Assembly (NCBI GenBank): GCA_903889895.1
Contig: CAISYZ010000236.1
Location: 1-38,199 of the forward strand
From: an uncultured Verrucomicrobia subdivision 3 bacterium
GTDB taxonomy: Bacteria; Verrucomicrobiota; Verrucomicrobiia; Limisphaerales; UBA11358
Direction: 5' to 3'
Length of the DNA stretch: 38,199 nucleotides
Under the pieces are notes generated by a model, which worked only from the letters and a program-made list of their open reading frames with translations, did no database searches and was not told the DNA's origin. Below, piece by piece: positions 2,183 through 14,050 of the stretch. Position numbers and translations under genes: made by a program. Position 1 is the stretch's first letter. The number at the start of each line of letters is the position of its first letter.

Positions 2183-3460
2183 TTAAACGGTTGCCGCCGG
2201 ACTGACCGGCTTCCATGCCACGGGAATCCGGACAAAGCCCCAGCGATGGGTCTCCATGTGCGAATCGGCGGCCTCGTTGACCAATTCGGGCAATGGGAGA
2301 CCTTCGATAAAATCCCCGTAGCGCGGGCCGTCAAACAGGCCCACCGCCAGGGAATAAGCTTCCAGCTTGAGAAATTTCAAGGGAATGGAAAATTGCACGG
2401 TATATTCCCCGACACCCAGTTGCAGTTTGGGAAACCGGTCGGAATATGATTCGGAAAAAATCTTGATGCCTTCCGCATGGACAATGGCCATGGGAATATC
2501 GAGCGTGTCCGTCGGCTGGTCGATGCGGAACCGGACTTCCACCAGCAGGTCTTCCGTGTGGTTCAGGCGGGCCACCTGCTCGCCCTGCTGGTTCATGAAC
2601 TTCAAGCTCAACAGCCGGCCGACCTCTGCGGCCCGCTGCCGGGGATGGGTGGTCAGGTCGGTGGTGCCCGCCTGCGCCGACGCATTCTGATCCAGATACA
2701 TATTGATGCCCAGGTGGGCTTCGCCCACACAGGCAACCTTACCCTGCTTCAACAAAATGACGCTCCGGCACATCTGGCGGATGGCCTGAAGATTGTGGCT
2801 GACAAACAGCACGGTCCGGCCCGCCTGCGCCACGGTTCCCATCTTGCCCATGCATTTCTTCTGGAATTCCGCATCCCCGACAGCCAGCACTTCGTCCACA
2901 ATCAAAATCTCCGGCTCCAGATGCGCCGCCACGGCGAAGGCCAGCCGCATATACATGCCGCTGGAATAGCGCTTCACCGGCGTGTCCAAAAACTTTTCCA
3001 CCTCGGCGAACGCCACAATCTCGTCAAATTTTTTCCGGATCTCCGCCCGGTGCATCCCCAGAATGGCACCGTTCAGATAAATGTTTTCCCGCCCGGTCAG
3101 CTCCGGATGAAAGCCCGTGCCCACCTCCAGCAGGCTCGCCACACGGCCGCGCAGGCGGATGCACCCGGTGGTCGGCTCGGTGATGCGGCTCAAGATTTTC
3201 AACAGGGTGGATTTGCCCGCCCCGTTGCGGCCAATGATGCCCACCGCCTCGCCCGCCTTGATCTCGAACGACACGTCGTTAAGCGCCCAAAACTCCTCCA
3301 CTGATTTCCGGTTTGCGATTTCTGATTTCCGATTTTGGAACAGGGATCTGGCCTTGTCCGCGAGGACATCACGCAGCGCCACGTAACGCCGGCCCACCGC
3401 CTGATGCCGGAGCAGGTATTTTTTGCCGAGGTTTTCAACCTTGATGGCGTAGTCGCTCAT
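2183..3460 (-). CDS. wzt: ABC transporter ATP-binding protein, Wzt-like
   Basis: A 425-residue ATPase of the polysaccharide exporter class. Walker A is GRNGAGKST (77-85), the signature is YSSGM (165-169), Walker B is ILIVDE (185-190) and the switch histidine is in VLFVSHN. The nucleotide-binding domain ends near residue 250. The rest, rich in beta strands (about 265-425), fits the C-terminal substrate-binding domain of Wzt proteins that read the end of an O-antigen chain. Its partner is the Wzm permease at 3997-4824, separated by a four-helix-bundle gene. Residues 42-53 (QNRKSEIANRKS) match no conserved ABC element and are encoded by a short, repetitive AT-rich stretch like the intergenic filler elsewhere in the window, suggesting an in-frame insertion in a surface loop. 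ATG start overlaps the inverted repeat that borders the neighbouring element. Confidence 0.9.
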   Translation of the reverse strand: MSDYAIKVENLGKKYLLRHQAVGRRYVALRDVLADKARSLFQNRKSEIANRKSVEEFWALNDVSFEIKAGEAVGIIGRNGAGKSTLLKILSRITEPTTGCIRLRGRVASLLEVGTGFHPELTGRENIYLNGAILGMHRAEIRKKFDEIVAFAEVEKFLDTPVKRYSSGMYMRLAFAVAAHLEPEILIVDEVLAVGDAEFQKKCMGKMGTVAQAGRTVLFVSHNLQAIRQMCRSVILLKQGKVACVGEAHLGINMYLDQNASAQAGTTDLTTHPRQRAAEVGRLLSLKFMNQQGEQVARLNHTEDLLVEVRFRIDQPTDTLDIPMAIVHAEGIKIFSESYSDRFPKLQLGVGEYTVQFSIPLKFLKLEAYSLAVGLFDGPRYGDFIEGLPLPELVNEAADSHMETHRWGFVRIPVAWKPVSPAATV

Positions 3461-4003
3461 TTTTTAAAAGCTGAAATCTAAAATTCTAAAAAGCTTAAAG
3501 GTAATATTCCGGTTCGCGGGCATTCTGTTTGAATTTCAGGGTTTTAGCTTTTCAGAATTTAAGTTTTAGATTTTAGGCGAAGCCGCGACACCATGGTTAT
3601 GAAAATCGCCATCAATTCACCGGTTTCACGCTGGAGCTGATCCATCCGCCCGTTTTGGATGCCACAGTCTTCCCGCAGCAGTTCAAGCCATAGTTGTGAT
3701 TCATCCGCCTCCTGCAGCAGTCCATCCAGCTTGGAGCAAAACTCCGAATCGGAACGCGCCCGGGAAGCCTCGCGGGCATGGGCCGCCACCGAGGTCCCCG
3801 AACGCAGCAGTTGGTGGCCGAGCACCTTCACCTCTTCGCGCGCCTTCGGCAGGCTGACATACAAACGAATCATTTCTGATGCGTATTGTTTTGTCCGCTG
3901 GCGCAATTCTTCGGATAAACGGCTCATGTTTTTAAATGCTAAAATGAAAATGTTTAAATAAATTTCAGAGTTTTCAAATTTTAGCATTTCAGCTTTTTAA
4001 ATG
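3459..4003. other. IVS-like element with inverted ends between wzm and wzt
   Basis: The AT-rich ends at 3459-3488 and 3976-4003 are imperfect inverted repeats: AAAAGCTGAAAT followed by CTAAAATT on one side pairs with the complement of the other, with a one-base bulge. They enclose the four-helix-bundle gene and fall exactly between the wzm stop codon and the wzt start codon. Proteins of this fold are known from intervening sequences in bacterial 23S rRNA, where flanking inverted repeats form a stem. Finding the same arrangement between two protein genes suggests a small mobile or formerly mobile unit. The mobility is inference. Confidence 0.5.
3559..3927 (-). CDS. Four-helix-bundle protein (23S rRNA IVS protein family)
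   Basis: A 122-residue protein, almost all helical, of the four-helix-bundle family first seen in 23S rRNA intervening sequences (S23 family). Typical features are the opening RTKQYASEMIRLYVSLPKAREEVKVL pattern split over two helices, then LLRSGTSVAAHAREASRARS (about 43-62) and EADESQLWLELL. The central LLRSGTSV..N/H..EA pattern is the hallmark. Its biochemical function is not established. The frame continues 20 codons upstream, but that extension is AT-rich repeat sequence, so ATG at 3927 is preferred. It sits between wzm and wzt, on the same strand, within inverted repeats, so it would be transcribed with the exporter operon without obviously belonging to it. Confidence 0.85.
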   Translation of the reverse strand: MSRLSEELRQRTKQYASEMIRLYVSLPKAREEVKVLGHQLLRSGTSVAAHAREASRARSDSEFCSKLDGLLQEADESQLWLELLREDCGIQNGRMDQLQRETGELMAIFITMVSRLRLKSKT

Positions 4004-4824
4004 ATATCGGCAAACGCCTTTTCCGTGGCCCGAAAATATTTCAGGCCGGAAAACAGCAGCAGCGCCGTTACCGTCAGCGCGGCGGCCAGGCCCCAGGCGT
4101 CAAACGCCGCCGTGCCGCCCAACGCCCACCGGTAACCATCAATCACCGCCACCATCGGGTTCAGGTCATACCACAGGTAGGCCGGGCCGACGTGCTTGGC
4201 GTGGAACACGCTGCTGGTGAAAAAAACCGGCGAGACAAAAATTCCGAACTGGACGATGAACGGGATGACGTAACGGAAATCCCGGTATTTGACATTAAGG
4301 GCCGAGAGCCACAGACCGACGCCGAACGAGGCGAAAAACGCCAGCCCCGTGAACAGCGGCAGCGTCAGCAGCCGCCACGTCGGCGGCACGTGATACCAGA
4401 CCATCAGCCCGGCCAGGATGACCAGGGAAATCAGCAGGTCGCCGAAGCTGACAATCACCGCGCTGGCCGGCACGATGATGCGGGGGAAATAAATCTTGGA
4501 AATCATGTTGGCGTTGGTGATGAGGCTGTTGCTGTCCTCCGCCAGCGCCGAGGCGAAAAACTGCCACGGCAGCGTCGCGGCACAGATCAACACCGGATAC
4601 GGCAGGCCATCAGACAGCATCCCGCCCATCTTGCCGAAGATGACCGTGCCGATGAGGATGATGAGCAGCGGCCGGATTAGCGCCCACAGCACGCCGATGA
4701 CGGTCTGCTTGTAGCGCACCAGCAGGTCGCGCCACGAGAGGAAGAAGAACAGCTCCCGATAGCGCCAGAGGTCGGCCCAGTAGTGGCGCTCCGTCTTGCC
4801 GGCTTCGATGACCATTTCATTCAT
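3997..4824 (-). CDS. wzm: ABC-2 type polysaccharide export permease, Wzm-like
   Basis: A 275-residue integral membrane protein with about six hydrophobic segments. The N-terminal amphipathic stretch (RELFFFLSWRDLLVRYKQT) followed by VIGVLWALIRPL is characteristic of polysaccharide ABC-2 permeases, as is the late LNPMVAVIDGYRWAL motif. With Wzt it would form the inner-membrane channel that exports a lipid-linked glycan. The open frame extends to 4950, but the extra 42 residues are derived from repetitive intergenic sequence, so ATG at 4824 (or 4815) is the likely start. The stop codon lies inside the inverted repeat of the following element. The exporter sits next to GT9 and methyltransferase genes, which fits an O-antigen or capsule locus. 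Confidence 0.88.
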   Translation of the reverse strand: MNEMVIEAGKTERHYWADLWRYRELFFFLSWRDLLVRYKQTVIGVLWALIRPLLIILIGTVIFGKMGGMLSDGLPYPVLICAATLPWQFFASALAEDSNSLITNANMISKIYFPRIIVPASAVIVSFGDLLISLVILAGLMVWYHVPPTWRLLTLPLFTGLAFFASFGVGLWLSALNVKYRDFRYVIPFIVQFGIFVSPVFFTSSVFHAKHVGPAYLWYDLNPMVAVIDGYRWALGGTAAFDAWGLAAALTVTALLLFSGLKYFRATEKAFADII

Positions 4825-4986
4825 GCGTGAATTAACATCCTGCCAGCCGGCGGCTAAAAGCGGAAGCCAAAACCGGAAAGTTGAGACCGAAAATTTGAAG
4901 CGCCGCGAATTGCTGGTTTCCGGTTTCGAGACGCCGGTTTGTTCGAGCATTTTCCTCCCGGCCCGATTCCGCCGGTCAGCAACCCT

Positions 4987-5691: not shown

Positions 5692-6060
5692 TTACTTCGC
5701 CGGGGTGGCGGCTTTCTTGGTCTTGTTGGTCTTGCCTGTGGCGCGGTCGCTTTTGCGCACATAGCCCATGGCGGCATATAATTCGCCGTCTTCGCCTTCG
5801 GTCGGATCACCTTTCACGGCGTTGACCACCAGATTGACCTGCTTCATGCTTTCCACGTCGGCATTGTCGCGGTCAGTCTCGGCGGCAATCCGTTGATCCT
5901 CCAGCGTGTCCAGTTGGGCGCGCGCGTCCAGGCTGGGCTGCACCTTGGCCGTGAACTGCGCGAGCGTCATGCCCGCGAAGCTCTTCGCGGCGCACACGTC
6001 CTTCCACGCTTTCAGCACGACGGCGATTTTATCGCCATAATCTTTGGGACTTCCTGCCAT
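5692..6060 (-). CDS. Small conserved hypothetical protein
   Basis: A 122-residue soluble protein with no recognised domain. It starts MAGSPKDYGDKIAVVLKAW, has a helical, acidic middle (LDTLEDQRIAAETDRDNAD, probably a coiled coil at about 50-75), then VNLVVNAVKGDPTEGEDGEL, AAMGYVRKSDR and a lysine-rich tail. I recall similar small proteins from other bacteria, with the same GDP-x-GED and MGYVRKS motifs, but no function. A strong ribosome site, AGGAGGTG, lies 8 bases before the ATG at 6060, so it should be well translated. Upstream is a ten-copy 21-bp tandem array, an arrangement repeated at the gene at 36478. It may be co-transcribed with the hypothetical gene at 4987-5610. Confidence 0.75.
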   Translation of the reverse strand: MAGSPKDYGDKIAVVLKAWKDVCAAKSFAGMTLAQFTAKVQPSLDARAQLDTLEDQRIAAETDRDNADVESMKQVNLVVNAVKGDPTEGEDGELYAAMGYVRKSDRATGKTNKTKKAATPAK

Positions 6061-6135
6061 ATGTTTTCACCTCCTGTTCACCGAAAAAGCATTGAAAACC
6101 GGTAAATACCGGCGTTGGGATACAAAAGTGGTGGC

Positions 6136-6345
6136 TTCGGTCGCACGCGAGCCGCCTACGATTGCGGTAGCAGGGCTTTCGGTTGCAACCGAGGGCTTTT
6201 CGGTTGTAATCGAGCCGCCTTCGGTCGCGGTAGAAGGGCTTTCGGTTGCGGAAGAGCAGCCTTCGGTCGGGGTAGAAGACCTTTCGGTTGCAAAGGAAGA
6301 GCCGGCTATCGCGGCAGAAGGCCTTTCGCTGGCGATAGAGGCGTC
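6136..6345. repeat. Degenerate 21-bp tandem array, about ten copies
   Basis: Ten units of 21 bases run without spacers. Most begin TTCGGT and continue with a purine-rich half such as GTAGAAGGGCT; units start at 6136, 6157, 6178, 6199, 6220, 6241, 6262, 6283, 6304 and 6325. Because 21 is a multiple of three, all three plus frames and at least one minus frame stay open. The plus frame reads a heptad like LSVAxEG, and the minus frame (6067-6453) a Ser/Thr-rich heptad like ATExPSx. Neither has independent support as a protein, so I list this as a DNA repeat. It occupies the gap between the XRE regulator and the small gene starting at 6060; its near edge is 75 bases from that start. Confidence 0.85.
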
Positions 6346-6373
6346 CGCTGGCGTGGAAAAAAATCCCGCTGTT

Positions 6374-6751
6374 TCAGGGAGCCGCTCGCCGCCTGTTCCG
6401 GAGGCATTCACGGTGTCTATTGAAGCACACCAACTCGCCCCGGTGAATGTCACAATTGTGGCATTTTTGGCAGCCCGCCGGCAGCCGGCGGAGCCAGAAC
6501 TCGGCCTCCAAGGCCAGTTCGCTGCCGGTCAGGCCAAACCCGGCGGCCACCTGTTCCAGTGCCCGCAGACTCAAATGACGCCGGTCATCCTCCACATAGC
6601 CGATGGTCTGGCGCGAGAGGCCGGCCCGGGCCGCGAGTTGCGCGGGTTTCAGGTGGTGCCGTTCGCGCCGGCGGCGGATGACGCCGGCCAGGGCTTCATT
6701 GATAAGGGCGAGCAAGCGGGGCGGTAACGGCGGAAAAACTTTTGCGCGCAT
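6374..6751 (-). CDS. XRE-family helix-turn-helix regulator with Cys-rich tail
   Basis: A 125-residue protein. Residues about 20-80 form a Cro/C1-type helix-turn-helix: RRRRERHHLKPAQLAARAGL, then SRQTIGYVEDDRRHLSLRAL and EQVAAGFGLTGSELAL. This is the usual pattern of an XRE DNA-binding domain. The tail contains a Cys cluster (GCQKCHNCDIHRGELVC) that could bind zinc. The open frame continues to 6799, but ATG at 6751 gives the normal domain start. It lies downstream of the SDR gene on the same strand, about 90 bases away, and next to the 21-bp array, which could be its target or simply a neighbour. I cannot assign regulated genes. Confidence 0.8.
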   Translation of the reverse strand: MRAKVFPPLPPRLLALINEALAGVIRRRRERHHLKPAQLAARAGLSRQTIGYVEDDRRHLSLRALEQVAAGFGLTGSELALEAEFWLRRLPAGCQKCHNCDIHRGELVCFNRHRECLRNRRRAAP

Positions 6752-6840
6752 AAGCCTGAAGGATTGAACCCAACATGACACGCCGGCGGAAAAATTCAAG
6801 CCGCCGCCGCGCGCCGGGCGGGCAAGGGGTCAAATCCCCT

Positions 6841-7551
6841 TCAAACTGGATGATTCTCGCCCTGACCCAGCACGGCAGAATCTTCCACCAACTGGAGGAT
6901 GCGCGCGGCGGCCTCCGTCGGAAGGGTGATCCGTCCGGCATTGGCACGGATGGCCTCGCTCAAGCGGGCATCCCATTGCTGCGTCAACGGCGTTTCCATG
7001 TAGCCCGGCGACACGCTGAAAACCCGGACGCCGCGCGCGGCATATTCGGCGGCGAGCGCCAGCGTGAAACCTTGCAGCGCGTATTTCGCCGTCAAGTAGG
7101 CGGCGAAACCCTTGGGCGGCGCGCCTTCGATGGCGGAAGTCAGGACATTGACGATGGTGCCATAGCCTTTTTTTAGCATGAGCCGGATCAAGGGCTGCGA
7201 GCAGCTCCACGCACCCTTGACCGCGACCAGAAAATTTTTCTCGAAATCCGCCCAGCCCAATTGGTGCAGCGGCATCGGCGAAAACGCGGCGCAGGCATTG
7301 TTCACCAGCGTCAGGCTGTCCGCCGTCTGAATTTCCGGGCGCTGCCACAGCGCCGGGTCGGCGGAGCAAACGTCGTGACGCAAGGCGTGGCCGGAAATTT
7401 TTTCCGACGCCATGAGTTCGACCAGTTCGCGTGCCGCGTTTTCATCGGCGGCATACAACGCCAGCACGTCGTAGCCCGCGCGACCGAAGGCGAGCGCGAT
7501 TTCGCGGCCCAAACCTTTGGTGCCGCCGGTGACGATGACGGTGCGTTTCAA
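6841..7551 (-). CDS. Short-chain dehydrogenase/reductase (3-oxoacyl reductase-like)
   Basis: A 236-residue classical SDR. The cofactor motif TGGTKGLG is at the N-terminus (about 7-14), followed by LVNNACAA in the NNAG position, and the catalytic pair is in AAYLTAKYAL (Tyr-x3-Lys) with the preceding Ser in LTSAIEG. The C-terminal SPGYMETPLT is typical of FabG-like reductases. It probably reduces a 3-oxoacyl thioester or a related ketone with NAD(P)H. I choose the TTG at 7551, read as KRTVIVTGG, because it overlaps the stop of the preceding gene (TTGA) and AGGAGG lies four bases upstream; the longer frame to 7599 runs through the neighbour. This overlap implies translational coupling to the MaoC gene. 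It is last in the acylation locus. Confidence 0.85.
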   Translation of the reverse strand: MKRTVIVTGGTKGLGREIALAFGRAGYDVLALYAADENAARELVELMASEKISGHALRHDVCSADPALWQRPEIQTADSLTLVNNACAAFSPMPLHQLGWADFEKNFLVAVKGAWSCSQPLIRLMLKKGYGTIVNVLTSAIEGAPPKGFAAYLTAKYALQGFTLALAAEYAARGVRVFSVSPGYMETPLTQQWDARLSEAIRANAGRITLPTEAAARILQLVEDSAVLGQGENHPV

Positions 7552-7994
7552 ATTTCCTCCTTGAGCATGACTTGGATTCGCCCGCGCGCCGCCGGGCATT
7601 GGCGCGTGGTGTTGGTGAGCGCGACATCGAGGACGACGACTTTTTGCGCCTCCATTTTTTGGCTGACCGTGGCCGCCAGTTGAATCGTGTCGCCGAGATA
7701 CGAAGGATTGGCAAACCGCAGATCCACCGACAGCAGCAAACTGAACCGGCCCGGAAAGTGCATCCCGACGAAGTGGGAAATAAAACCGTTCAACACAGAG
7801 CCGTGCATCACCTTGCCCGCGAAGCCGCGCGACTTGGCAAACACCTCGTCCACATGAACCGGGCTGTGATCCTGAAACGCGGCGAGAAAGTGCGCATACA
7901 CTTCCGGCGTGATGACGTAATCGTGCGCCACCTTCATGCCCACGTTGATTTCGTGGTAATGAAACGTGCGCAAGGCGTTCGGGGCGTCGCTCAT
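7548..7994 (-). CDS. MaoC-like hot-dog dehydratase/hydratase
   Basis: A 148-residue single hot-dog domain protein of the MaoC family. The active-site segment AAFQDHSPVHVDEVFAKS (about 38-55) carries the Asp-x4-His pair of (R)-specific enoyl hydratases, followed by GKVMHGSVLNGFISHFVG, the long central helix. The strand LLLSVDLRFANPSYLGDTI is also typical. It should hydrate an enoyl thioester or dehydrate a 3-hydroxyacyl thioester, on CoA or ACP. Its ATG lies six bases after the natural end of the MBOAT frame (8001), and its stop overlaps the SDR start. The pair MaoC plus SDR suggests processing of a short acyl chain in the same pathway as the ACP. The exact substrate is unknown. Confidence 0.88.
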   Translation of the reverse strand: MSDAPNALRTFHYHEINVGMKVAHDYVITPEVYAHFLAAFQDHSPVHVDEVFAKSRGFAGKVMHGSVLNGFISHFVGMHFPGRFSLLLSVDLRFANPSYLGDTIQLAATVSQKMEAQKVVVLDVALTNTTRQCPAARGRIQVMLKEEI

Positions 7995-8000
7995 TTTAAC

Positions 8001-8117
8001 TCACCGCAGCGCGGCGAAAATTTCCTTCATTTGCGGAAACGTGTTGGCAAACAAAAACAGGCTCGCGGCGCAGTAGCCAAAAGTCAAGGTCACGGCGACG
8101 GCGCGAATCCAACGGTT
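8001..8117 (-). other. Stranded C-terminal end of the MBOAT gene
   Basis: After the TAA at 8118-8120 the same frame continues for 38 sense codons to TGA at 8001-8003. The peptide runs NRWIRAVAVTLTFGYCAAS, then a hydrophobic LFLFANTF and QMKEIFAALR, which looks like the last membrane segment and tail of an MBOAT protein. The six-base spacing to the MaoC ATG also fits the real end of the gene being here. There is no good separate start codon or ribosome site. Confidence 0.75.
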
Positions 8118-9218
8118 TTAATTGTAGGCTTTGAATTTTTCGCGCCCCAATTTCTTTTTCAGAAAGATGGTGTAGTAATGGTTCGCCACCACGCCGAGCG
8201 CGTGGACTGCGCCGAACGCGGCAAAATTCCAGCCGACCCCGTGCCAGATGCCCACAAGCAGAAACACCACCGTGATCGTCAGCGCTATCGCGTGGTCGGC
8301 CAGCTTGATGCCCATCTTGGTGACGAGGAATTTGGAGAGCGGCGAGAACACGACGTCGCGCATCCACACGGACAGCGTGATGTGCCAGCGATTCCAAAAA
8401 TCCTTCACGTTGCGCGCGGCAAACGGATGGTCGAAATTTTCCGGCACAGGGATGCCAATCAAACCTGCCGCGCCAATCGCCATGTCGCAGAAACCGGAAA
8501 AATTCAGGTAGAGATACAAATAGAAAAACAACATCGCCACCGGCAGGTCCACCCAATGATGCGGGTGGTCGTCCAGCAGCAGGCCGGAATACGTGAGCTG
8601 GTTGCAAAGGCCGGCGAGGAACTGGTATTTGACCGCGCCGACGAGGATGCGGAGCGCGGCGCGGCCGACGGGAACGTCGTAGCGCTCGATGAAGCCGCGG
8701 CGGAAATTGGCGTAGGTGTTGATGGGCCCGACGGACATCGTGGGCAGGAAAAAGGCAAAGTTCACATATTCGAGCAAGCTGGGCATTTTCACCACGCCGT
8801 TGCGGACTTCCAGCACCAGCCGGCTGCAGCGGAAGGCGAGGTAGGAGATGCCAATCATTTGCGGCACGCCGCGCCAGCTCTGGCCAAAGGCGTGGCCGAA
8901 CGCCACATAAAATTCGCCCGGCACATAGCGGATGACGATGAGCGCCGCAATGGGCGCGAAGAACGCCAGCCACGGCCAGGCCCCGCGCTTGTCCGCAAAC
9001 AGCAGCACGACGAGATAAAGGCCGACAATAAGCCCGACATAGATTCCAAATCGCAGGGCGAAGTGCTCCTTGCCGCCGTAAAACAGGAAAAAGAAAACGC
9101 CGCCCAGATTCAAGGCGGCCAGCGCCGCTTCGCGGAGGGCACCGTTAAGCCGGCGCATCACCACGCGGCCCGCCAGAATGTAGGCCAGCAATCCGGCCAG
9201 CTGATAAAGCGAGTTCAT
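8118..9218 (-). CDS. MBOAT family O-acyltransferase, truncated by an in-frame stop
   Basis: A 366-residue polytopic membrane protein of the membrane-bound O-acyltransferase family (DltB/AlgI type). The conserved block FWNRWHITLSVWMRDVVFSP (275-294) and GIWHGVGWNF (323-332) contain His279 and His326, matching the two conserved MBOAT histidines. Other family marks are FFLPTMSVGPI (about 156-166) and LYLYLNFSGFCDMAIG. It should take an acyl group from a cytosolic carrier protein and pass it across the membrane. A TAA at 8118 interrupts the frame 39 codons before the natural stop at 8001, removing the final hydrophobic segment. It begins three bases after a DltX-like microprotein gene and lies in the same run as SGNH and ACP genes. 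Whether the truncation is real or a sequence error is not decidable here. Confidence 0.85.
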   Translation of the reverse strand: MNSLYQLAGLLAYILAGRVVMRRLNGALREAALAALNLGGVFFFLFYGGKEHFALRFGIYVGLIVGLYLVVLLFADKRGAWPWLAFFAPIAALIVIRYVPGEFYVAFGHAFGQSWRGVPQMIGISYLAFRCSRLVLEVRNGVVKMPSLLEYVNFAFFLPTMSVGPINTYANFRRGFIERYDVPVGRAALRILVGAVKYQFLAGLCNQLTYSGLLLDDHPHHWVDLPVAMLFFYLYLYLNFSGFCDMAIGAAGLIGIPVPENFDHPFAARNVKDFWNRWHITLSVWMRDVVFSPLSKFLVTKMGIKLADHAIALTITVVFLLVGIWHGVGWNFAAFGAVHALGVVANHYYTIFLKKKLGREKFKAYN

Positions 9219-9221
9219 AAG

Positions 9222-9353
9222 TTAAAATCCCTGATAGACCACCGTGTTATCCAAGGCATAGGAATACGAGATCACCGTCGCAGTCAGCGCCGCCAAGGAC
9301 AGGACGACCAGCAGACCGACCAGCAAATTTTCAATGATGGGTTGACGTATCAT
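9222..9353 (-). CDS. DltX-like single-span microprotein, copy 2
   Basis: A 43-residue protein. Residues 1-9 are MIRQPIIEN, followed by one hydrophobic segment (about 10-30) and a short tail that ends VVYQGF at the carboxyl terminus. With the charged N-terminus inside, the tail would face the periplasm. Its ATG at 9353 overlaps the end of the upstream SGNH gene by 23 bases in another frame, and its stop is three bases before the MBOAT start, the position DltX genes take beside dltB. The microprotein at 10502-10633 has the same length, a matching R-x-P-hydrophobic-E opening, a shared LAAL core and the same ending VYQGF. In the Dlt system the C-terminal tyrosine of such a motif carries the acyl group. 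That role here is inference from position and motif. Confidence 0.8.
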   Translation of the reverse strand: MIRQPIIENLLVGLLVVLSLAALTATVISYSYALDNTVVYQGF

Positions 9354-10428
9354 AGGCTGATAAAAGGCTGGGGGTAATCAGCGCGGTGAAAAAATCCTGC
9401 CCGTTTTTACTAAAATGATCCGGGCCGGAAAAGCACTTAAACGCGTCCTCATCATTCAGGCCCTGAAACATGGCAGCCGGCGGAACGCCGACCAACCACG
9501 GATGGCCGGCCAAAATTTCCGGCCAACATTCGCGTTCATGAATCAGCGGAGAACGGATTTCGCGGTCGGTGGGGAAATGCAGGAAGACCACCTGAACGTG
9601 ATAAGATTCTGCCAGCGCCATGATTTTGCGGGCAAAATAAAACTGCAGCGGGGTCGTGGCGGGGCCGGTGAATTTGAAGCTGGCCGCGGTGGCCGGGGAG
9701 TAAATGCAGGTGGCGGCCGGGTTGACCCCGGTTGAGGGCTGAAAGGGAACAAAACAACCGCCTACTTGGTAGGGCAGGCAGACGCCCAGCGAACCCATGG
9801 TGGTGGCGGGATTGGCGGCGTGATACTTGTCGTTCAGATAGGGAGTGGCGGTCAGATCGGCGGGGAGATTGGGGCGCACAAGACCCAGCAGGTTGCGCGG
9901 CAAACCCAGAATCGCCCCAGAATAATAGGCCGCCTGGAGCGGCAAGGACAAGCCGGTCAGATCGGCCCAATCATCGCCATAGCGGAACCAGCGGTGGGAC
10001 ATGGTTTGCGGGCGCCGATAGGGAATGGGCTGTTCGTCGCAGATGACCAGCACCTGCAGCCGCCGGTGTTGCAGCAAATCTTTGGCGATGAAATAGACGG
10101 CATCAAACCCCGGCCACTCCCAGCCCAAAGTGACCACCGTGGCCGGCCGGCCCACATGCTGGCTCAAGGCGGCCTGGACATACGGAGCGTTGACGCCCCA
10201 CCACATATGGGAGGAGCCCAGAAAGGCGATGTCGATGGCATTCGTTTCCTTGAAAATTTGCTGCTCCAAGTAGGGATATGCCCCGAAACGCCAGGCGACG
10301 GAAGAATAGCTTTCCTCCCGTGGCGGCAGGAATCTTTGGCCGGCCAGCCAGGGTGCCAGCAGCACCAGCAGCAGCAGCCCAGTAAAGGCCGCAGTCTGTT
10401 TCAGGGATGAAAAGGCCGATCGCATCAT
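9331..10428 (-). CDS. Membrane-anchored SGNH/DltD-like protein, copy 2
   Basis: About 365 residues from ATG 10428, chosen because MMRSAFSSLKQTAAF aligns with the start of the paralogue at 10623-11726 (MMRPAFTSTKQAAAF). The open frame extends to 10590 and another ATG lies at 10443. A hydrophobic segment (about 13-28) anchors it, with the rest outside. The nucleophile motif is in IDIAFLGSSHMWW, where the second Ser of GSSH falls at the GDS position of SGNH hydrolases. The last block is GPDHFSKNGQDFF, giving the His but not the usual Asp three residues before it. By analogy with DltD or AlgJ/X it would move an acyl group to or from an envelope polymer. It is followed by its own microprotein gene, which overlaps it. 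Confidence 0.75.
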   Translation of the reverse strand: MMRSAFSSLKQTAAFTGLLLLVLLAPWLAGQRFLPPREESYSSVAWRFGAYPYLEQQIFKETNAIDIAFLGSSHMWWGVNAPYVQAALSQHVGRPATVVTLGWEWPGFDAVYFIAKDLLQHRRLQVLVICDEQPIPYRRPQTMSHRWFRYGDDWADLTGLSLPLQAAYYSGAILGLPRNLLGLVRPNLPADLTATPYLNDKYHAANPATTMGSLGVCLPYQVGGCFVPFQPSTGVNPAATCIYSPATAASFKFTGPATTPLQFYFARKIMALAESYHVQVVFLHFPTDREIRSPLIHERECWPEILAGHPWLVGVPPAAMFQGLNDEDAFKCFSGPDHFSKNGQDFFTALITPSLLSAYDTSTHH

Positions 10429-10501
10429 GGCTGATTTTGGCATTTCAGGCGGCTGACCCGATGCGATGGAAGTTGAATGCGCACAAGAAAAATTTCCGCT
10501 C

Positions 10502-10633
10502 TCAAAACCCCTGATAGACGGCGTGGGCATCCATAAAATTCGCCGGGACACTCGCTTCCAGCCACAAGGCGGCCAGAGCCAGGATGACAATCAGCGCATA
10601 GATAAGGGATTCAACTACCGGCCTAGTTTTCAT
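10502..10633 (-). CDS. DltX-like single-span microprotein, copy 1
   Basis: A 43-residue protein opening MKTRPVVESL, with a hydrophobic segment (about 10-25, ending in LAALWL) and a short extracytoplasmic tail ending AVYQGF. It is the same length as the microprotein at 9222-9353 and shares the R-x/P-hydrophobic-hydrophobic-E start, the LAAL core and the last five residues. The ATG at 10633 overlaps the end of the upstream SGNH gene by 11 bases, as in the other pair, so each SGNH gene is followed by its own microprotein. Too short for ordinary gene calling, it is supported by the paralogue comparison and conserved position. The predicted function is to carry an acyl group on Tyr40. Confidence 0.8.
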   Translation of the reverse strand: MKTRPVVESLIYALIVILALAALWLEASVPANFMDAHAVYQGF

Positions 10634-11726
10634 AAAGGTTGAGCAACGCTGGAGTGATCAGTGGGGTGAAATAATCTACGCCGTTTTTGTTTAAATGGGC
10701 CGGATTGAAATAGAGCTGGCGGACTTCGTCATCGGTCAAGCTGCCAAACATTTTGGCTGGCGGAACTCCTAGCAGGGTCAGGCCGGGCATGATTTCCGGC
10801 CAGCACCGCCGCTCGCGGATTTCCGGGAGCCGGGCCTCGCCCAGCACTGGAATATGCAGCATCACCAGCTTGCACCCATGATCCCGGGCCAGCGCGGCGA
10901 ACAGTTTTGCAAAATGCAGATGCCAGTCCGGCATGGCCTCGCCGGTAAATCGAAAGTCATTTTTCCGAGCCGGCGAATAAACCTCCGCGTCCGCCGCCGT
11001 CACCCCGGTGGCCGGCTGGTAGGGCAAAAAGAGGGTGAAATCATCCTGATCCAGCCGCCGGGTAAAACCCAGTTCTGAACGGGTGGCTCCGAGCAATTCC
11101 ACGATGCTGGGCGAGCCGTAACTCCGCTCCCAATAATTGGGCTGGGCGGTTACCAGCGGCGCGGCGAGGTTGGGCCGGAATATTTCGATCAAATTGCGCG
11201 GCATGCCGACGATGGCGGAAAAATAAAAATGGCAGGCATCGGCAAACGCCAGACCCTGAAGTGAATCCGCATTCTCGCCGTAGCGAAACAGAAATGTCAT
11301 CAGCGAGTTGCGCGTGTGGAGAACATTATTCTCGTCGTAAAACACCAGCAGCCGCACCCGGCGATGCGTCAGCAAATCCTGAGCGATAAAAAAAAAGGCG
11401 TCGTAGCCACCGCCCGCCCAGCCGATCGTGCGGACGACGGCTGGACGATGCAACTGCTCACTCAGCCGGGCTTGGACATACGGCGTGTCGATGGCGTGCA
11501 AAATATGGGATGAGCCGACAAAGGCGATGTCAATGTCGTTGGTCTCCTCGTAGATTTCATGGCGAATCCACGCCACGGGACCCATGCGCCAACCGCAGGT
11601 GGAGTAAGCCTGCTCCCGTGGTGGCAAAAGATTTTTTCCGACGATTACCGGCGAAAGCAAAACCACCAACAGCAACAACGCGAACGCCGCCGCCTGCTTG
11701 GTGGAGGTGAACGCCGGACGCATCAT
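10623..11726 (-). CDS. Membrane-anchored SGNH/DltD-like protein, copy 1
   Basis: A 367-residue protein, paralogous to that at 9331-10428 throughout (shared PPRE-x-x-YS start of the mature domain, ETN-IDIAF-GSSH, TPYVQARL, and a closing ITPALL). A hydrophobic N-terminal segment (about 12-29) is followed by an extracytoplasmic domain. The nucleophile motif is GSSH at 71-74, with Ser73 at the expected place. The C-terminal block is FNPAHLNKNG, with His344 and Asn341 where a D-x-x-H pair is usual. It probably transfers an acyl group between the microprotein tyrosine and an envelope polymer. The start has no strong ribosome site; about 170 bases of mostly repetitive sequence separate it from the ACP gene, so a separate promoter is possible. 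Confidence 0.75.
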   Translation of the reverse strand: MMRPAFTSTKQAAAFALLLLVVLLSPVIVGKNLLPPREQAYSTCGWRMGPVAWIRHEIYEETNDIDIAFVGSSHILHAIDTPYVQARLSEQLHRPAVVRTIGWAGGGYDAFFFIAQDLLTHRRVRLLVFYDENNVLHTRNSLMTFLFRYGENADSLQGLAFADACHFYFSAIVGMPRNLIEIFRPNLAAPLVTAQPNYWERSYGSPSIVELLGATRSELGFTRRLDQDDFTLFLPYQPATGVTAADAEVYSPARKNDFRFTGEAMPDWHLHFAKLFAALARDHGCKLVMLHIPVLGEARLPEIRERRCWPEIMPGLTLLGVPPAKMFGSLTDDEVRQLYFNPAHLNKNGVDYFTPLITPALLNLYEN

Positions 11727-11894: not shown

Positions 11895-12140
11895 TCACGG
11901 CTCCTGCTTGCGCTTGAGAATCAGGTCGGCAAACTCGCCGACATTTTTGGTGTTCTCCACCTCGCCGACGCGGAAGCGCACGCCGAAAGATTTTTCCACC
12001 GCGACCATCAGCGAGATGTGCGTGAGCGAATCCCATTCCGGCACGTCCTTCGCGCTGAGGGCGGGCGTGAGCACCACCGGTTCCAGAAACACAGTGTCGA
12101 AAATGGTCTGCAATTGGGCGATGACTTCAGCTTGGGTCAT
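11895..12140 (-). CDS. Acyl carrier protein
   Basis: An 81-residue acyl carrier protein. The phosphopantetheine attachment motif is EWDSLTHISLM with Ser38, in the normal place at the start of helix II, and the helix III region is VENTKNVGEFADLI. The overall length and the acidic surface are normal for a stand-alone carrier. It lies 41 bases after an FkbH-type gene and upstream of the SGNH/microprotein/MBOAT genes. FkbH enzymes typically load a glyceryl group from 1,3-bisphosphoglycerate onto a partner ACP, so this is the likely carrier for the MBOAT. It is not obviously the fatty-acid ACP: no fab genes flank it. No DltA-like adenylating enzyme is present in the window. Confidence 0.9.
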   Translation of the reverse strand: MTQAEVIAQLQTIFDTVFLEPVVLTPALSAKDVPEWDSLTHISLMVAVEKSFGVRFRVGEVENTKNVGEFADLILKRKQEP

Positions 12141-12181: not shown

Positions 12182-14050
12182 TTACTTTTCCGCATACGCT
12201 TGCCGGACAATTTTTATTTTGGTTTCACGCGGCGCAAAATTTTCCAGCCGCAGTTCAAATTCGCGTTTCGCCTCGGATTCGGCGGTGAGAGTAAATCCCA
12301 TCTTGCCGTAAAAATCACGCACCATTTCGTTCTTCGGCGTCGGCAGGTAAACGCCGGCGAGGCGCGGGCAGTTTTTCCATTTGGCCAGCCGCACCAGCTC
12401 GTTCAAAACGATTTCTTCCACGCCGCGCTTGAGCACGCGGCAGCTCATCAGCCAGGTGTCAATGTTCAGCGTCTCGCCAACTTTTTCACCGATGACGATG
12501 GAAATCAAACCGTGGTCGCCAAACCGATCCTTCAGCCGCACGGAATAGCCGATGAAATTTTCATCGTTCATCACGGCGGTGACTTCCGCCTCGCTGCGGC
12601 GGTGCGTGGTGAGATTGAACTGGTTGCTCTTGTTGATGAGCTGCGACAGGCGCGGCACATCCACCGGCGTGAATTCGCTGATGACCGCCTCCATCTGCAG
12701 CGATTCGAGATACGCGCCCATGTCCGTGACCGACGATTCCAGCGCCTTGCGCTGCACATCGGAACGATACTGGCTCGTGCGCTCGGCGTCCTCGGCGGTG
12801 ATGTTGCGCGGCTCGAACAAACGCGAATCGGCGAGCTGCCCGACGTATTCCGACGGATCGGGGCCGAGCAGAATCGTCGTCACTTCGGGCACAAATTGCC
12901 GGACAATTTCGATCTCCGCCGGGTTGTCGTCCACGAACACAAAACTGTCCAAGCCCAAATTTAATTCCGGCGCCATTGCGCGGATGTTTTCCGACTTCGG
13001 TTCCCAATTCGCCTTGAAGCTTACGATGTCGTCGAGCTTCAGCACCATGTCGGGATGTTTCTGAAACGGCTCCTGCGCCCTGGCCAAATCATTTTTGCTG
13101 CACACGGCCAGCAGCACGCCGCGCTGCTTGAGCGAGGCGATATATTTCTGAAACGCCTTGAACGCCTCGCCGCGCGGCGAGGTGTCGCCGAGTTCGATGC
13201 CGTCCAAACCGTCGTCCGCCACCACGCCGCCCCAGAGCGTGTTGTCCAAATCCAAAACCAAAACTTTTTTCGGCGCGCGCTTGAGCGAAAAAATTAAATG
13301 AGAAACTTCGCGCGCCAGTTCCACGAGCAGCGCGGAGGAACACGGCTGCTTGCTCTCGAACCACCCGCGCTCGTCGCGCGCGGCGAGGCCGCCGTGCCGG
13401 TGCGCGAGAAACGACCAGTCGCAAATGTGCAAATACGACGGCGCGGCGAGGCCGAGTTCCAAGTTGACCCATTTGCGGAACGCCCAGTCCGAGCCAAGCG
13501 TGCGCGAGCGGAACGCGCCGAGGTCGTGCCGCGCGGGCAGCATGAAATTGGTGGTGATGACCTCCGCGCCGGTCTTCTCATTCACCTTGCGCGCGAGTTC
13601 CAGCAGCGAATCCACGGCGCGCTGCGCCTCGGCCTGCACGAGTTCGCGCGGGTCGGTGAGCTTGCCGGTGTAAATACAGCGCCGCTCGGCGGGCAGCATG
13701 AAGACGACCTGCGGCGCGAACGAATAAAGCTCGCTGTCGTCGTCCATGATCTCGGACAGGTAATTGTCGTAATCGCCCTGCCACAGCTCAACCGGGTGAT
13801 TTTCCAGTTCGCACAGATGTTCAATGAGTTCGTGCAGCGGATAAAGGCTATAACCGCCGACAAGCGCGAGGCGCAGTTTTTTGGCGGGCGCATCCGGCTT
13901 GGCTAATTTGCGCGCGTGCGCCTTTTTGCGGAGCGACGAGAGCAAAAACAATTCGCCAAAATCGTGCGCGGATTGGGTGAGCGATTGCAACTGCGCCCAG
14001 AATTCCGGGTCACCCTTGAGCAGCAAAGATTTTAGCTGGTTGATGTCCAT
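12182..14050 (-). CDS. FkbH-like HAD-IIIC protein with C-terminal GNAT-like domain
   Basis: A 622-residue protein with the FkbH layout. An N-terminal domain of about 250 residues includes LALVGGYSLYPLHELIEHL. The HAD core follows, with VLDLDNTLWGG (265-275, Asp267 and Asp269), LLAVCSKND (313-321, with the conserved Cys) and FVDDNPAE (372-379). A C-terminal acyltransferase-like region (about 470-615) ends in an ESEAKREFELRL segment. Known FkbH enzymes take D-1,3-bisphosphoglycerate, remove a phosphate and load the glyceryl group onto an ACP. The ACP gene is next downstream, 41 bases away, which supports that partnership. It is predicted to be cytosolic. Whether it really makes glyceryl-ACP or another acyl donor cannot be read from sequence. 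It is preceded by a GT2 gene on the same strand. Confidence 0.88.
   Translation of the reverse strand: MDINQLKSLLLKGDPEFWAQLQSLTQSAHDFGELFLLSSLRKKAHARKLAKPDAPAKKLRLALVGGYSLYPLHELIEHLCELENHPVELWQGDYDNYLSEIMDDDSELYSFAPQVVFMLPAERRCIYTGKLTDPRELVQAEAQRAVDSLLELARKVNEKTGAEVITTNFMLPARHDLGAFRSRTLGSDWAFRKWVNLELGLAAPSYLHICDWSFLAHRHGGLAARDERGWFESKQPCSSALLVELAREVSHLIFSLKRAPKKVLVLDLDNTLWGGVVADDGLDGIELGDTSPRGEAFKAFQKYIASLKQRGVLLAVCSKNDLARAQEPFQKHPDMVLKLDDIVSFKANWEPKSENIRAMAPELNLGLDSFVFVDDNPAEIEIVRQFVPEVTTILLGPDPSEYVGQLADSRLFEPRNITAEDAERTSQYRSDVQRKALESSVTDMGAYLESLQMEAVISEFTPVDVPRLSQLINKSNQFNLTTHRRSEAEVTAVMNDENFIGYSVRLKDRFGDHGLISIVIGEKVGETLNIDTWLMSCRVLKRGVEEIVLNELVRLAKWKNCPRLAGVYLPTPKNEMVRDFYGKMGFTLTAESEAKREFELRLENFAPRETKIKIVRQAYAEK

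Follow-up and report, generated by a model that had tools for sequence, protein, structure and literature searches.

Conserved YxxF-tailed microproteins beside a DltB-like MBOAT: candidate detachable acyl shuttles of Gram-negative bacteria

In the Dlt pathway, the tail Tyr of the DltX microprotein takes over the acyl group from the MBOAT and gives it to DltD; the microprotein also bridges DltB and DltD (PMC12148441). PatA has the same acyl-carrying tail Tyr, fused to the MBOAT (PMC12148441). From MBOAT/SGNH pathways other than Dlt, carrier protein and DltX-like microprotein are both said to be absent (PMC12148441, 2025), and acyl hand-over by a separate small protein has so far been described only in the Gram-positive Dlt pathway. 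FkbH-type HAD proteins encoded next to a free-standing acyl carrier protein (ACP) are known from the tetronate and methoxymalonyl pathways (PMC7489565). A literature search, with most subscription journals outside its scope, returned no paper on the gene arrangement described here; the mention of DltX in a Bordetella paper is an unrelated clinical abbreviation.

The window, the whole stretch of DNA that was analyzed, comprises 38,199 nucleotides from the draft genome (75.7% complete, 260 contigs) of an uncultured Verrucomicrobia subdivision 3 bacterium. It contains a minus-strand operon with the order FkbH, ACP, SGNH1, microprotein 1, SGNH2, microprotein 2, MBOAT, MaoC and SDR, flanked by glycosyltransferase genes and an ABC exporter:

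12182..14050, minus strand, FkbH-type protein with the HAD-IIIC motifs DLDNT and LMSCRV
11895..12140, minus strand, ACP with an EWDSL phosphopantetheine site
10623..11726, minus strand, SGNH1, 367 aa, predicted DltD-like, GSS block I, NPAH block V
10502..10633, minus strand, microprotein 1, ATG-started, 43 aa (MKTRPVVESLIYALIVILALAALWLEASVPANFMDAHAVYQGF), tail AVYQGF, the extra copy, paired with SGNH1
9331..10428, minus strand, SGNH2, 365 aa, predicted DltD-like, GSS block I, GPDH block V, model pLDDT 90.5
9222..9353, minus strand, microprotein 2, ATG-started, 43 aa (MIRQPIIENLLVGLLVVLSLAALTATVISYSYALDNTVVYQGF), tail VVYQGF, in the conserved place directly upstream of the MBOAT
8118..9218, minus strand, DltB-like MBOAT, 366 aa up to an in-frame TAA, His279 and His326 conserved
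7548..7994, minus strand, MaoC-like dehydratase, accessory, in 8/18 relatives
6841..7557, minus strand, FabG-like SDR oxidoreductase, accessory, in 8/18 relatives
3997-4950, ABC-2 membrane protein of the ABC exporter
2183-3460, Wzt-like ATPase of the ABC exporter

Next to a helix-turn-helix gene (6374-6799), an imperfect short repeat gives rise to low-complexity frames on both strands (6067-6453, minus; 6044-6727, plus).

A preliminary description of this DNA had reported two 43-residue minus-strand frames with a single hydrophobic segment containing LAAL and the end VYQGF, and both are present as described. The opening R-x-P-h-h-E (h, hydrophobic) that they were said to share is found in microprotein 2, whereas microprotein 1 opens with R-P-h-h-E. 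Each frame does overlap the end of an SGNH gene, microprotein 1 with SGNH1 (end at 10623) by 11 nt and microprotein 2 with SGNH2 (end at 9331) by 23 nt, and microprotein 2 abuts the MBOAT gene, with 3 nt between its end and the MBOAT ATG (9218). These overlaps and the short gap suggest translational coupling. The proposed attachment of the microproteins to SGNH genes is seen as overlap in the window, but across relatives the microprotein gene is bound to the MBOAT gene instead. Microprotein and MBOAT are adjacent at locus L034, where there is no neighboring SGNH gene, and at L047, where the SGNH gene lies three genes downstream. That the microprotein stays with the MBOAT when the SGNH is elsewhere or absent fits the MBOAT as its first partner. 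The second SGNH-microprotein pair is peculiar to the window's genome. Three relatives (L033, L035 and L038) have tandem SGNH genes, two or three of them, upstream of one microprotein and one MBOAT, possibly reflecting diversified acceptor specificity. These loci rule out that a microprotein accompanies every SGNH duplication.

Relatives were fetched from genome collections by the neighboring MBOAT alone, without use of the microprotein. In 25/25 relatives with upstream DNA and an undisturbed MBOAT locus, the MBOAT is immediately preceded by a small ORF (mostly 40-50 aa) that ends in Y-x-x-F, and the Tyr and final Phe of the tail were invariant across all of them. These relatives belong to Verrucomicrobiota, Acidobacteriota, Thiotrichales, Melainabacteria, Myxococcota and one deltaproteobacterial lineage. 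Locus L043 begins at the MBOAT and was left out of the microprotein count. At L128, microprotein, ACP and SGNH are missing and the N-terminal half of FkbH runs straight into the C-terminal half of the MBOAT; this locus was left uncounted because the fusion is a rearrangement or an assembly error. An alignment of 21 of these relatives with both window copies showed no variation at the start Met, Tyr40 or Phe43, and almost none at Val39 and one Leu. Four of the 25 were found after the pattern had been fixed and also obey it (L145-L147, from the phylum of L045, and L151, from that of L050).

The tail is rare among short ORFs. Of the 1,929 ORFs of 36-60 aa counted over the window and 26 related loci, 28 end in [VIA]Y..F. 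The microproteins beside MBOAT/SGNH genes make up 27 of them, and the remaining one is an unrelated DUF5989 protein. A DUF5989 protein (PF19451) at L043:4755-4952 has the shuttle-like tail APFIYTLF and adjoins SxtJ and a carbamoyltransferase-like gene; the tails vary among other members of that family (APFMYPFM, APLLYPLF), which makes DUF5989 a doubtful candidate for a further shuttle family. The preliminary description had staked its reading on conservation of tail and frames in related genomes and on protein selection. Tail and frames are kept in the 25 relatives, across several phyla, and the selection is purifying, with a pooled pN/pS for the closest seven sequences of 0.33 in frame vs. 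1.03 and 1.93 in the other frames. Microprotein 1, compared with relatives, has a pN well below pS. Chance or non-coding ORFs are ruled out by conservation, selection and the background ORF counts, and by their sequences both microproteins are judged to be real, conserved genes.

Membership of the DltX family by sequence was ruled out. None of the 23 microproteins matched Pfam DltX (PF12459) even at E 1, while 3/3 genuine DltX proteins did, and a profile-profile comparison with DltX gave an E of 0.094 over 1 column; outside the tail, no homology to the DltX sequence is seen. The DltX hexapeptide FxYxxF is not reproduced, its first Phe being replaced by V, A, I, L, S or P, with the Tyr and last Phe invariant. 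As read from their sequences, the microproteins are of the small single-span type (40-50 aa, a mostly basic N-terminus and one hydrophobic segment), and they share with DltX that they are encoded with a DltB-type MBOAT lacking a tail of its own. By analogy, the microproteins most likely work like DltX without being members of its family.

The sole NCBIfam match of the window MBOAT is the DltB model (TIGR04091; 194.8 bits, E 2.6e-57), whose equivalog cut-off of 375 bits is not reached. Phylogenetic comparison with Firmicutes DltB and AlgI-type MBOATs recovers the clade of the window MBOAT as monophyletic (0.996) and joined to Firmicutes DltB (1.0), which places it as the sister group of the latter. 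A model of the L036 MBOAT (84% identical to that of the window; pLDDT 90.2) found the DltB structures 8jem and 6bug as its best solved matches (TM 0.76), so that the MBOAT is predicted to have the DltB fold. Both His279 and His326, the catalytic-region His residues of the DltB type, are invariant. The proteins of the clade end where DltB ends, and a YxxF tail is absent from the C-terminus of 18/18 fetched members. In contrast, 30/30 longer AlgI-type MBOATs of the same phylum have a fused C-terminal FxYxxF tail, among them the second MBOAT of the window's genome (L001), which ends in NPFIYFRF. The tail thus sits either on the MBOAT or on a neighboring microprotein, and the sequences indicate that the tail missing from the clade MBOATs is supplied by the microprotein.

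The window copy of the MBOAT has an in-frame TAA at 8118-8120 (minus strand), at codon 367 and 39 codons early. Relatives have another codon there, mostly GAA or GAC. The remaining 38 codons are open and conserved to a TGA at 8001-8003, giving a full frame of 405 aa as in close relatives. The premature stop would remove the last helix, and the copy may be damaged or misread; since the genome is a draft, the TAA may reflect either an error or a truncation that is real and recent.

SGNH1 and SGNH2 gave no Pfam family match. The SGNH2 model has an SGNH fold, and DltD chains took the first eleven Foldseek places (E 3e-3). DltD aligned with it at Z 10.2-10.4 over 235-252 residues; other SGNH folds reached equal Z over shorter alignments. 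From the model, the SGNH proteins are predicted to be DltD-like in fold. Ser73 and His338 are invariant. The residue three before the catalytic His is Asp in many SGNH enzymes; here it is Asn in SGNH1, Gly in SGNH2 and Asp or Asn in most relatives. A full Ser-Asp-His triad (D-x-x-H) is therefore not found in SGNH1 or SGNH2, and the Asp is not conserved among relatives. The two window copies are not each other's closest in the SGNH tree, where SGNH1 groups with most Limisphaerales copies and SGNH2 weakly with L044 (0.707). The partners strengthen the initial reading of the microproteins as DltX equivalents: the tailless MBOAT resembles DltB in sequence, length, tree position and predicted fold, and the SGNH proteins are DltD-like in predicted fold.

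The locus had been described as lacking DltA, and FkbH and ACP do stand in place of DltA/DltC, which suggests a glycerate-derived acyl group. FkbH scores 313.7 bits, over the curated TIGR01686 cut-off of 146.65. An ACP with DSL lies beside the system in 15/18 loci, and FkbH adjoins it in 13/18. Going by its family membership, FkbH likely loads the glycerate-derived acyl group on ACP, and glyceryl-ACP is the probable donor. MaoC and SDR may modify the acyl group.

We consider it likely that each microprotein serves as a detachable acyl shuttle in an envelope acylation system of the MBOAT/SGNH kind that is fed by a carrier protein. This proposal builds on the genes, their conservation and selection, the fold and family of their partners, and the MBOAT without a fused tail; from these we infer Tyr acylation, the order of transfer, the acyl group and the acceptor. 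Points that weigh against it are the replaced first Phe of the motif, the lack of DltX homology outside the tail, the premature stop of the window MBOAT, the non-conserved Asp of the SGNH triad and the L034 locus with no SGNH neighbor. FkbH would load ACP with an acyl group, most probably a glyceryl derived from 1,3-bisphosphoglycerate, and MaoC/SDR could then change it there. The DltB-like MBOAT would carry the acyl group across the membrane to the tail Tyr (VYQGF) of the microprotein, whose N-terminus would be cytoplasmic and whose tail would be periplasmic. From the MBOAT the tail would swing to the DltD-like SGNH protein and its catalytic Ser, and this enzyme would esterify a cell-surface polymer, probably a glycan made and exported by the surrounding glycosyltransferase and Wzm/Wzt-type genes. 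By its anatomy, with the tail on a separate protein, the system is classed as a split type, and the window possibly encodes two shuttles with private SGNH partners, fed by one MBOAT.

Several readings compete with this proposal. As overlapping or spacer ORFs without protein function, the frames would be expected to be short, to lack a family match and to overlap the SGNH gene ends, as they do, but their conservation in 25 relatives of several phyla, the in-frame purifying selection and the invariant tail leave this reading virtually no chance. Microprotein 1 and SGNH1 might instead form a decaying extra pair without function. In favor of this, relatives that carry two or three SGNH genes have just a single microprotein, and the operon's MBOAT contains a premature stop. 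We nevertheless hold it to be unlikely, as both frames are unbroken, with the full tail, and the pN of microprotein 1 lies well below its pS.

It is rather improbable that the microprotein joins MBOAT and SGNH as a subunit for structure or assembly and is not itself an acyl carrier. Such a role would suit a single-span protein always encoded beside the MBOAT, and the Dlt microprotein does bridge its partners, but invariance is confined to the start Met and the C-terminal tail, the remainder of the protein being variable. The invariant Tyr and Phe occupy the motif positions of known acyl shuttles, and the MBOAT is without the tail that every fused relative has. Very improbable, finally, is a true D-alanine-adding Dlt pathway whose DltA gene lies elsewhere: a DltB-like MBOAT, a DltD-like SGNH and an ACP donor are as in Dlt, but the protein adjoining ACP in 13/18 loci is FkbH and no adenylating enzyme, and the MBOAT score stays under the DltB equivalog cut-off.

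With the shuttle reading preferred, a broader proposal can be put forward, tentatively and with somewhat more doubt than belief: a Gram-negative Dlt-like pathway in at least five phyla, in which FkbH and ACP, with no adenylating enzyme involved, would supply a DltB-like MBOAT with a glycerate-derived acyl group, which an interchangeable microprotein, separate from the MBOAT, would shuttle to one of several SGNH transferases decorating a surface glycan. Contrary to the published account (PMC12148441), the window-type family combines carrier protein and microprotein in Gram-negatives, so that split shuttles are not confined to Gram-positives; they may accompany carrier-protein donors. The system represents an envelope modification that is as yet unexplored and whose acyl group can be predicted, and its presumed active Tyr goes unseen because the microprotein gene is too short for ordinary annotation.

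Compared with DltX-DltB-DltD of Firmicutes, the window-type system has in common a separate single-span microprotein with a C-terminal YxxF tail, a DltB-type MBOAT without a tail, an SGNH transferase and a carrier protein as donor. It differs in that (i) FkbH and ACP are present and DltA is not; (ii) the microprotein gene lies directly before the MBOAT gene; (iii) the tail is mostly VYQGF, vs. FIYNEF in DltX; (iv) it occurs in Gram-negative lineages and its microproteins give no PF12459 match; and (v) the window's genome has a second SGNH-microprotein pair. FkbH/ACP glyceryl-ACP loading modules likewise have an FkbH-type HAD protein adjoining a free-standing ACP (PMC7489565), but those of the tetronate and methoxymalonyl pathways are tied to a polyketide synthase and that of the window to membrane acyl export. 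PatA/PatB and AlgI-type systems share with the window the MBOAT, the SGNH protein, the YxxF acyl-shuttle tail and the Gram-negative cell type. In those systems extra helices fuse the tail to the MBOAT, and acyl-CoA serves as donor (PMC12148441), whereas the window system has an ACP gene and places the tail on a separate protein.
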